In this document: positions 34,782-37,796 of the stretch, piece by piece
How positions within the stretch are numbered: the stretch's first letter is position 1
Layout: every line of letters starts with the position of its first letter
IMG/VR virus record: IMGVR_UViG_3300012964_000028
Location: 1-37,796 of that record
Length of the DNA stretch: 37,796 bases
Direction: 5' to 3' (one strand)
Origin: a virus
Program-made: the position numbers and the translations under genes
Notes under the pieces: model-generated
What the model saw: only the letters and a program-made list of their open reading frames with translations
What the model was told of the DNA's origin: nothing
Database searches by the model: none

Positions 34782-34857
34782 TGGAGCGGGATAAGAGACT
34801 TGAACTCTTAACCTTCTGATTGGAAATCAGTTGCTCTGCCAATTGAGCTAATCCCGC
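34782..34857 (-). tRNA. tRNA-Gly (anticodon TCC)
   Basis: The acceptor GCGGGAT pairs with ATCCCGC, followed by T73 and an encoded CCA (34782-34784). The D-arm is TAGCTC...GAGC. The anticodon loop TTTCCAA is closed by CTGA/TCAG, giving TCC. The T-arm is AAGAGTTCAAGTCTCTT. T73 with a GCGGG acceptor is typical of bacterial tRNA-Gly. If the loop is shifted by one base it would read CCA (Trp), but T33 and T73 favour Gly. Confidence 0.85.
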
Positions 34858-34859
34858 TT

Positions 34860-34937
34860 TGGCGAACCCCCAGAGAATCGAACTCCGCTCAGTCGGATTT
34901 GGAGTCCAACTCGCCTGACCTTGGAACATTGGGGCTC
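34860..34937 (-). tRNA. tRNA-Trp (anticodon CCA)
   Basis: The acceptor GAGCCCC pairs with GGGGTTC (one G-T), then G73 and an encoded CCA (34860-34862). The anticodon stem TTGGA/TCCGA closes CTCCAAA, giving CCA. The T-arm CGGAGTTCGATTCTCTG is good. G73 fits Trp. The D-arm region (TGTTCCAAGGTCAGGCGA) does not form a standard stem, so function is less sure. It stands 2 bases from tRNA-Gly. Confidence 0.75.
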
Positions 34938-35724: not shown

Positions 35725-36291
35725 CTACTTGTTGTTACTACTGCTTAAGTATTGCCAAATCAAGTAATGTTCTTCGGCAGTCCCATCATTCTTAATACGA
35801 TTTGCTCTCCAACTTACTATTTGAACATTTCCGTCAATATATCCTTTTTCTGGATCAATTCTATCAAAAGACGGACTATTCTCTTGTCGTCCCTCTGCAT
35901 TGTAATCTAACTCTATACCAAGAATTGGACAAACTTTATTCCAGATAATTTCAGAAAAAGCAACATCAAAGTGATGTCCTACGGATTTAGTTAGTGCTTT
36001 TTTTTGTCGATATTTTTGTTTACATACGGCTAAAAAATCTTTATCTTGTAAACGTTCTCCGTCAAAAAACTCTCCATATTTAGCTTGCATTTTCTCAAGC
36101 CATTTTTGATTTTTCTCTCGACTGCGTTCTTTAAGGCCATATCCATTCAGATTAAATCTTTTTGCAAACTGACGTATGCGTTCACGACTCAGACCATAAT
36201 CATCTGCAATCTTCTGATAAGTATCTCCATTTCGCAGACGTTCTTCGATTTTTGGTAATTCTTCTGGTTGCACTTTGTACTTAAAAGTCAA
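35725..36291 (-). CDS. HNH-type endonuclease with N-terminal HTH
   Basis: A 188-residue protein starts at TTG 36291, overlapping the end of the polymerase C-part by 11 bases. N-terminal NGDTYQKIADDYGLSRERIR forms a helix-turn-helix at about 21-45. The nuclease part has CPILGIELDY, then ENSPSFDRIDPEKGYIDGNV, QIVSWRANRIKND and TAEEHYLIWQYL. This DRIDP..GY..GN..IVS..AN..K layout is typical of phage HNH endonucleases, often homing enzymes. Its place right after a broken polymerase gene fits a mobile endonuclease that targets polymerase genes. Confidence 0.85.
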   Translation of the reverse strand: MTFKYKVQPEELPKIEERLRNGDTYQKIADDYGLSRERIRQFAKRFNLNGYGLKERSREKNQKWLEKMQAKYGEFFDGERLQDKDFLAVCKQKYRQKKALTKSVGHHFDVAFSEIIWNKVCPILGIELDYNAEGRQENSPSFDRIDPEKGYIDGNVQIVSWRANRIKNDGTAEEHYLIWQYLSSSNNK

Positions 36292-36985
36292 CTTCTTCTA
36301 GCTCCTTCATATTATTTCCAACGGACACTTCGCAACGAGTTGGAAGATCAAATGGTACCTTAAAGACTTGCTCAAAGTTATGAGGAAGCTTTTTAAAAAC
36401 ATCAAAAAATAACTCAACAGTTCGATCTACTTCATGGTTAGGTACGTCAGCTACAATTGAATCGTGTACTGTGTTCACAAATACACCCTGAATCTGTCGT
36501 TCTTTAAATCGTTTAAAAGCAGATACACGAGCAATTGACATTAAATCAGCCGCAAGACCCTGAACAATGTAATTTTTAATTGTAGTTACTGGCCATTTTC
36601 CATTAATTGGTGAGTACTCATATGTCCGTCGTGTTGCTGGATTAATAATCTTTCCTGTTGTAGTTGCCTCTTGGATCAGGGAAGTCCACCAACCATTCCA
36701 TCCAGAATATTTATCACAAAACTTATCAATTGCTTTTTGCCAGAATTTTTCAGCAGTACTTACATCTGTAAAATCTGGATCATTTGCATACGTGTGTGCC
36801 GTACCTCCATAAATTAAACGGAAGATGAATTTCTTTGCAATCAATCGAGAAGGGAGTCCAAAAGCATCTTGATTTAATGTATGCTGATCTACACTATCCC
36901 AAATCTCTTGATAGGCAACTTTATCCTTTGCAAGAAACGTGCCTGCTACCCACTCAATGGCGCGACCGTCAACATTGACAATCAT
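36281..36985 (-). CDS. DNA polymerase family A, C-terminal part (motifs A, B, C)
   Basis: A 234-residue protein starts at ATG 36985, at the very strand that carries motif A: MIVNVDGRAIEWVAG, with D6 as metal ligand and E11. Motif B is RLIAKKFIFRLIYGG, with R47, K51, F55 and Y59 at the spacing of E. coli R754, K758, F762 and Y766. Motif C is NTVHDSIVAD (H174, D175). Palm and fingers are thus complete, but thumb and any exonuclease domain must come from another chain. The frame is closed by a TGA five codons upstream. The start overlaps the stop of a small ORF by ATGA. Confidence 0.93.
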   Translation of the reverse strand: MIVNVDGRAIEWVAGTFLAKDKVAYQEIWDSVDQHTLNQDAFGLPSRLIAKKFIFRLIYGGTAHTYANDPDFTDVSTAEKFWQKAIDKFCDKYSGWNGWWTSLIQEATTTGKIINPATRRTYEYSPINGKWPVTTIKNYIVQGLAADLMSIARVSAFKRFKERQIQGVFVNTVHDSIVADVPNHEVDRTVELFFDVFKKLPHNFEQVFKVPFDLPTRCEVSVGNNMKELEEVDF

Positions 36986-37230
36986 AGGTCTTCTGGCTCA
37001 GGGAGTAGATGTCGATTTTCTTTAGCCCACATTACTAATTTGCAAACATCTTCTGGTATCCAACGTCTGTCTACACACCAATCATTATATAGAAATAGCG
37101 CACTTCTAACTATATGCAAGTGCTCAGTTTCTTGTCCTGTCATTATTCCAGTTGTTGGATAAGGTGTTACATCAGGTAGTTCTATTAACATACTCCTTCT
37201 GATATCGTTCACAAAAGTTCTAACGATCAT
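36982..37230 (-). CDS. Hypothetical 82-residue ORF between the polymerase parts
   Basis: The ORF runs from ATG 37230, overlapping the previous stop by ATGA, to the TGA that overlaps the polymerase C-part start. It opens MIVRTFVNDIRRSMLIELPD, then has IVRSALFLYNDWCVDRRWIP and EDVCKLVMWAKENRHLLPEP. A second start at Met14 (37191) has AGAAGGAG directly before it but too close for normal use. It is helical and Trp-rich in its second half. No family is recognised. It may link or chaperone the polymerase halves, or be a passenger. Confidence 0.6.
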   Translation of the reverse strand: MIVRTFVNDIRRSMLIELPDVTPYPTTGIMTGQETEHLHIVRSALFLYNDWCVDRRWIPEDVCKLVMWAKENRHLLPEPEDL

Positions 37231-37433
37231 TTATGACCTATAATAGTATTATTAACTGTAATTTGATTAAACAAATGCTCTAATAATCGCTCTCCCTGTT
37301 TCCCATATTTAGTAACGTAAATATAATTTCGTAGACTTTGAAAATCTTCTTTATATATATCAGATACCTGATTTTCTAAGAATTCAATGAATTCTTGTGC
37401 TTCATCAAAAGTCATTATTCTTAAATCATACAT
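37227..37433 (-). CDS. Hypothetical 68-residue ORF between the polymerase parts
   Basis: The ORF starts at ATG 37433, overlapping the end of the polymerase N-part by 8 bases, and stops at an ATGA shared with the next ORF. It opens MYDLRIMTFDEAQEFIEFLE and continues NQVSDIYKEDFQSLRNYIYV, with a basic YGKQGERLL later. It looks helical and mixed-charge. No family is recognised. Together with the 82-residue ORF it fills the whole gap in the polymerase without spare bases. Confidence 0.6.
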   Translation of the reverse strand: MYDLRIMTFDEAQEFIEFLENQVSDIYKEDFQSLRNYIYVTKYGKQGERLLEHLFNQITVNNTIIGHK

Positions 37434-37796
37434 ATCGACTCCTCATATAAATCTTCGTTACTGGATCGGCATTCTGTAAATTGGGTTTAGAACTGGACAA
37501 TCTACCTGTCACAGCCACACATTGATTTAGTGTGCCATGAAGCATATCTTTCTCCCAATTCATCTTATCAATTAAATCAGAATAGCCTTCAAGATAAGTC
37601 CCTCGAAGCTTTTCAATCTCTGCATGTTTCTTTAGCAGAGCTACGATCTTACGAGCATGTGAGGATAGTTTTAGTTTACGAAGAACTGTATCATTTACTT
37701 GCCAGTATCCTCCTTTTGCGACTTCAGTGTTCGCAAGCGGTTCGACGAGGCGGGGTAATTCGTATTCTTTTTGGATAACTTTGTAGCGTGTGTGAC
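37426..37796 (-). CDS. DNA polymerase family A, N-terminal part (partial)
   Basis: About 122 residues are visible; the start lies beyond the right edge. The end of the thumb (LRGTYLEGYSDLIDKMNWEK) is followed by VTGRLSSSKPNLQNADPVTK, which is the conserved TGRLSSxxPNLQN of family A polymerases. The chain then reads IYMRSRYV and stops at TGA 37426-37428. IYMRSRY matches the residues that normally lie just before motif A, so the break removes almost nothing. Motif A itself begins the C-part at 36985. Whether an exonuclease domain is present lies outside the window. Confidence 0.93.
   Translation of the reverse strand, partial: HTRYKVIQKEYELPRLVEPLANTEVAKGGYWQVNDTVLRKLKLSSHARKIVALLKKHAEIEKLRGTYLEGYSDLIDKMNWEKDMLHGTLNQCVAVTGRLSSSKPNLQNADPVTKIYMRSRYV

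Follow-up and report, generated by a model that had tools for sequence, protein, structure and literature searches.

The window analysed here, a single metagenomic contig of 37,796 bases from IMG/VR, encodes a family A DNA polymerase that is spread over two minus-strand open reading frames (ORFs) and broken directly before motif A. We consider it highly probable (roughly 0.88) that this is a two-chain polymerase, derived from one old gene fission, coupled through its operon and assembling without a covalent link. If so, a replicative family A polymerase exists as two unlinked chains throughout a phage clade, which would mean that a core enzyme can be heterodimeric, and would provide a natural split polymerase ready for engineering use.

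The upstream chain (chain 1; 37426–37796, minus strand) runs off the contig end at position 37796, leaving its 122 C-terminal residues visible. These match Pfam DNA_pol_A (PF00476, E 1.7e-16) over profile positions 51–132, and align to the full-length chain 1 of relatives with 55–64% identity. The stop codon, at 37426, follows ...LQNADPVTKIYMRSRYV, the last residues of the chain being ..TGRLSSSKPNLQNADPVTKIYMRSRYV. Chain 2 (36281–36985, minus strand; 234 aa), which comprises the palm from motif A onwards and the fingers, starts at 36985 with MIVNVDGRAIEW, i.e. with motif A itself, and matches the same Pfam profile over positions 205–380 (E 1.3e-18). Two PHROG DNA polymerase families, phrog_9556 and phrog_2573, likewise end or begin at the break point. 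The 440 nt that separate the stop of chain 1 from the start of chain 2 hold two further minus-strand genes, ORF1 (37227–37433; 68 aa), the start of which overlaps the chain 1 stop by 8 nt, and ORF2 (36982–37230; 82 aa), which shares a 4-nt ATGA overlap with ORF1 on one side and another with chain 2 on the other. A preliminary description of this DNA, made from the letters alone, had placed the split just before motif A with overlaps of 8, 4 and 4 nt around ORFs of 68 and 82 codons, and ORF calls, Pfam and PHROGs all agree with it. It had also held that almost no residues are missing, and the loss indeed amounts to about three (DKG) when compared with the intact relative HTVC033P (VTSRF-DKG-SILEIDF).

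All the catalytic motifs are found on chain 2. The motif A aspartate, residue 6, corresponds to Klenow D705 by alignment (codon at 36968–36970, minus strand); motif B, R47-LIAKKFIFRLI-Y59 (Rx3Kx3Fx3Y), was located by Klenow alignment and conservation at 36809–36847 (minus strand), and the His-Asp of motif C (VHDS; residues 174–175) by conservation at 36461–36466 (minus strand). Across 45 chain 2 sequences the motif A aspartate, R47, K51 and F55 of motif B, and H174, D175 and S176 of motif C are invariant, and Y59 is nearly so. Both halves are predicted to fold: chain 2 of the window, modelled alone with AF2, reached a pLDDT of 95.9, and chain 1 of the closest relative (L013), also alone, reached 91.3, with both models matching Pol I family structures in Foldseek. 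The enzyme is thus family A by Pfam as well as by structure, and not a family B polymerase of the T4-like 43A/43B type. Given the Klenow alignment and the loss of only some three residues relative to HTVC033P, the cut can be placed in the turn that joins two palm strands, immediately ahead of the strand of motif A. The preliminary description had assigned the thumb to one chain and the palm and fingers to the other; this needs refining, in that chain 1 carries the exonuclease and the first palm strand in addition to the thumb, leaving the remaining palm and the fingers to chain 2. The exonuclease part is seen in relatives, the window's own copy lying off the contig.

To place the split among other phages, viral contigs were scanned with profiles of chains 1 and 2 and with HNH profiles. 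This yielded 132 distinct split loci, all broken at the same point, and not a single intact polymerase among them; a search for intact relatives had been proposed in the preliminary description, and those that exist lie outside the clade. The same break is found in every one of the closest annotated phages. A tree built from the joined chains places the 82 split rows together in a single clade (SH-aLRT 99), with the intact polymerases and the polymerase of Vibrio phage ICP2 outside it, the tree being the product of a quick search with some long branches outside the clade. The end of chain 1 is nearly always no more than a few residues away from SRY, and chain 2 opens with M-[IL]-x-x-x-D.

What lies between these fixed ends varies freely. 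Gap length ranges from -17 to +3,598 nt, the relative frame of the chains may be 0, 1 or 2, and gaps have opened or closed at least seven times on the tree. In 34 of the 132 loci the gap is 1 nt or less, in several frames; these include the cultured Alcaligenes phage QDWS535, where the chains have no gap and overlap in TAATG. Elsewhere the gap holds a single 77-aa ORF (MEP401 and MEP402), an R67-type dihydrofolate reductase gene (MW202697), or about eight genes in 3.6 kb, one of them for a DNA methyltransferase (MW202796). Two loci with nearly identical flanks (L050 and L054) differ in that one has a 279-nt gap with a membrane-peptide gene which the other lacks. Where the gap is -17 (L033, L058, L059, L060, L067, L073 and others), the halves share 17 nt in different frames, and the TGA of chain 1 overlaps the codon for the catalytic aspartate of chain 2. 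An R67-type dihydrofolate reductase (PF06442, E 2.7e-22) is encoded in the polymerase gap of L002 (4773–4979), a phage genome from a spring-water assembly, and L010:2710–4752 encodes a DnaB-like helicase that seems to contain an intein (CLAPNTKVLMFNGKWKRV...IVTHNT).

We propose that a single fission divided the polymerase gene in the ancestor of this phage clade, cutting it in the turn that links the final palm strand of the first half to the strand of motif A, and that the halves are now separate genes of one operon. In the window a single message would be translated by way of the overlapping stop and start codons, termination being followed by re-initiation through the two small cargo ORFs; no strong Shine–Dalgarno sequence precedes chain 2 in the window, so its expression would depend on this coupling alone. 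The two chains would then assemble non-covalently, probably through pairing of ..KIYMRSRY with MIVNVD, the two strands of the cut hairpin, into an enzyme whose catalytic motifs all sit on chain 2. The joint would accept genes of any kind or length, with homing endonuclease genes entering it repeatedly.

Are the two small ORFs of the window passengers in this arrangement, or parts of the enzyme? ORF1 belongs to no Pfam or PHROG family and has no clear relative among phages and viral contigs, while ORF2 shows a weak match to phrog_26073 (E 0.0012) and matches small ORFs of large Klebsiella phages at E 0.07 or worse. Relatives of either were not detectable in other polymerase gaps, and to judge from this both look like cargo rather than subunits. 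The preliminary description had raised the idea of two small partner proteins. Taken as a hetero-tetramer in which the ORFs bridge the polymerase halves as structural partners, the idea draws on their co-transcription and overlap with the chains, and on a different family of small acidic proteins. In the MEP401-like subclade this family is conserved in about 30 gaps, its gene nearly always lying next to chain 2 on the upstream side (e.g. L022:2209–2442, L025:1698–1889, L071:2250–2480). That family persists even in a gapless relative (L039), where its gene lies at 2551–2787, 3.6 kb upstream and before chain 1. It has no Pfam or PHROG match and is absent from the window; from its distribution it could be a candidate polymerase partner within the MEP401-like subclade. 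The window ORFs, however, match neither this family nor anything in other gaps, many loci lack a gap ORF altogether, and with at least seven openings and closings, and gap content differing between near-identical polymerases (L050/L054), the enzyme appears to have no need of these proteins. We therefore regard a hetero-tetramer in the window as unlikely, and the comparisons lend no support to the notion of partner proteins. ORF2 does begin MIV, like chain 2, a weak hint that its start might be a relic chain 2 start; 20 of 1,226 ATG sites match as well.

Group I introns are frequent in phage DNA polymerase genes, and the 440 nt might be a self-splicing intron whose removal from the mRNA would give a single-chain polymerase. 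That only some three residues of protein are missing speaks for this, as does the presence in five relatives of real group I introns with HNH ORFs and a typical core sequence, inserted in motif B of chain 2 after the FxFR codons (L011:5328–6001, L047:2051–2590, L072:4266–5013, L079:6351–7020, L082:1505–2201). Those introns were missed at the Rfam gathering threshold, and the covariance-model search was hence rerun at permissive settings with a control: RF00028 then recovered the L047 intron (E 1.5e-6), but neither these models, for group I or group II, nor a core-motif search found an intron or a group I core in the window gap. In addition, 34 relatives split at the same point have gaps no longer than 1 nt, and these fall in different frames; neither an intron nor an intein can explain such a split. 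Elsewhere the gaps hold ORFs or operons, up to 3.6 kb long, that are unrelated to one another, the stop and start sites are fixed, and chain 2 has a Met start in nearly all loci. We thus take the intron to be very unlikely. The earlier proposal of two chains with coupled translation and no intron is supported: relatives without a gap, a break point that does not move and the controlled Rfam search all point the same way. The authors who described MEP401 stated that self-splicing of its insert was unknown (PMC10580990); as far as sequence can, the gapless relatives answer that question of intron versus two genes. A split intein was also considered and rejected: neither joint carries intein sequence, as the end of chain 1 is no more than a residue away from SRY and chain 2 opens with the motif A strand.

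The short overlaps in several relatives could also be read as sites of programmed frameshifting or readthrough that fuses the chains into one protein. Yet in the window the chains are separated by 440 nt that include several stops, and among relatives the frame may be 0, 1 or 2 and the gap as long as 3.6 kb, making such fusion most improbable. The window is a metagenomic contig, but that its split reflects a pseudogene or assembly artefact has a negligible chance, as the same break occurs in the isolates MEP401, MEP402 and QDWS535 and the catalytic residues are invariant, and since 132 distinct relatives break at the same place, chance or the sequencing error that the preliminary description had allowed for is excluded.

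If the gene has indeed been divided by fission, the HNH genes around it may indicate how. Directly after chain 2, and overlapping its end by 11 nt, the window encodes an HNH endonuclease-like protein of 188 aa (HTH plus HNH; 35725–36291, minus strand) belonging to phrog_3322, the same PHROG as HNH genes inside the breaks of relatives. Elsewhere in the window, genes for tRNA-Gly (tcc) and tRNA-Trp (cca) lie side by side at 34782–34937. An HNH gene sits inside motif A of chain 2 in about 15 relatives; it is of the phrog_3322 type except in L070, which has a different HNH. On its 5' side these insertions leave a relic chain 2 start, and on its 3' side stand a new ribosome-binding site, a start codon and the codons for LxQxDAKx. 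In L021, L046 and L113, reading by eye suggests a sigma70-like promoter that belongs to the HNH gene itself. Chain 2 then carries a frame-breaking indel of -1, +1, +2, +4, +6, +7 or +8 nt between DAKxL and EW (L046:6705–6790, L081:2255–2340, L172:4400–4510, L165:3610–3700, L248:3328–3414, L251:1493–1579, L257:383–469, L170:4410–4500, L113:1900–2010, L173:4390–4500, L021:3670–3740, L149:2960–3050, L094:3930–4040, L002:4945–5030, L070:2060–2140), in L002 and L094 without an HNH gene. Such indels number 16 at loci with chain 1 present (17 with L257), against two breaks elsewhere in split genes, intron loci excluded. The window has neither an HNH gene in its gap nor an indel in chain 2, both of which are seen in L046, L165, L172 and others.

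The codons before the indel and at its end are identical or synonymous in 14 of 15 distinct cases, such that a hop between them would restore the normal peptide; for the eight matching indels of 4 nt or more, random insertion predicts a match in 4–9% each, and the exception is L070 (+7). Three of the indels read Leu-stop-Leu, among them CTG TAA CTG in L046 and CTT TAG CTA in L172. The matched codons suggest that ribosomes hop here as they do in T4 gene 60. On this model, a free-standing HNH gene would enter the motif A codons of chain 2, leaving a relic start on its 5' side and bringing a new ribosome-binding site, start and first codons on its 3' side, and ribosomes would slip or hop over the indel just after those codons. 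Microhomology in the DNA is another possible source of matched codons, and hopping remains a strong lead. RNA splicing of these cassettes was rejected: it could not restore the enzyme in L021, L046, L149 and L165, where the catalytic Asp codon is missing from the relic copy and both copies lie 5' of the indel. After the indel, dN/dS is 0.12 (L021/L149). The polymerases have diverged more than the HNH genes, and recombination alone accounts for the differences between L165 and L166, so the age of the indels is bounded only loosely. We lean slightly towards the reading that these loci form a family of HNH-plus-hop cassettes, that such a cassette was the route of the first gene split, and that the window is a healed descendant which has kept the fission. 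No natural in-frame stop-hop was known to a 2016 review (PMC5009743); if the reading is true, hop cassettes would supply natural stop-hops and would reveal a way in which homing endonucleases make two genes out of one.

Several known systems invite comparison. In T4, a homing endonuclease split gene 39 (gene 39/mobA/gene 60), and gene 60 contains a 50-nt bypass (PMC5009743); the jumps proposed for the cassettes of relatives are much shorter (-1 to +8 nt) and represent many independent cases, and the window, unlike the mobA/gene 60 type, has no HNH in the gap and no indel. Vibrio phage ICP2 has a related polymerase with an HNH ORF near the same place and a chain 2 that restarts at its own ATG. 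Its interruption lies about 14 residues upstream, however, and represents a separate event, as this polymerase groups with intact ones on the tree. GenBank annotates it as a spliced join (L009:2438–3010), yet the HNH ORF overlaps both halves; this overlap and the separate ATG suggest that ICP2 may hold a second, independent gene fission. The split family B polymerase 43A/43B of Aeromonas phages 25 and 44RR co-purifies and is active, and the split NrdA of Aeh1 works (PMC2988022). Like the polymerase of the window, each is a phage replication enzyme in two chains, in some phages with a homing endonuclease gene at the break. They differ in being a family B polymerase or a reductase with a different break, and reassembly, demonstrated for them, is what we infer for the window.

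The nearest parallel is the family A polymerase split reported in 2023 for the Methylophilales phages MEP401 and MEP402 and related metagenomic genomes (PMC10580990). These share with the window the polymerase family, the break before motif A, a small gap ORF and the clade, and their chains are homologous to those of the window (45–50% identical), although they have one 77-aa gap ORF of another family. From the sequence comparisons, the split in the window would be a further case of the kind already reported for these phages, with the intron alternative now very unlikely.
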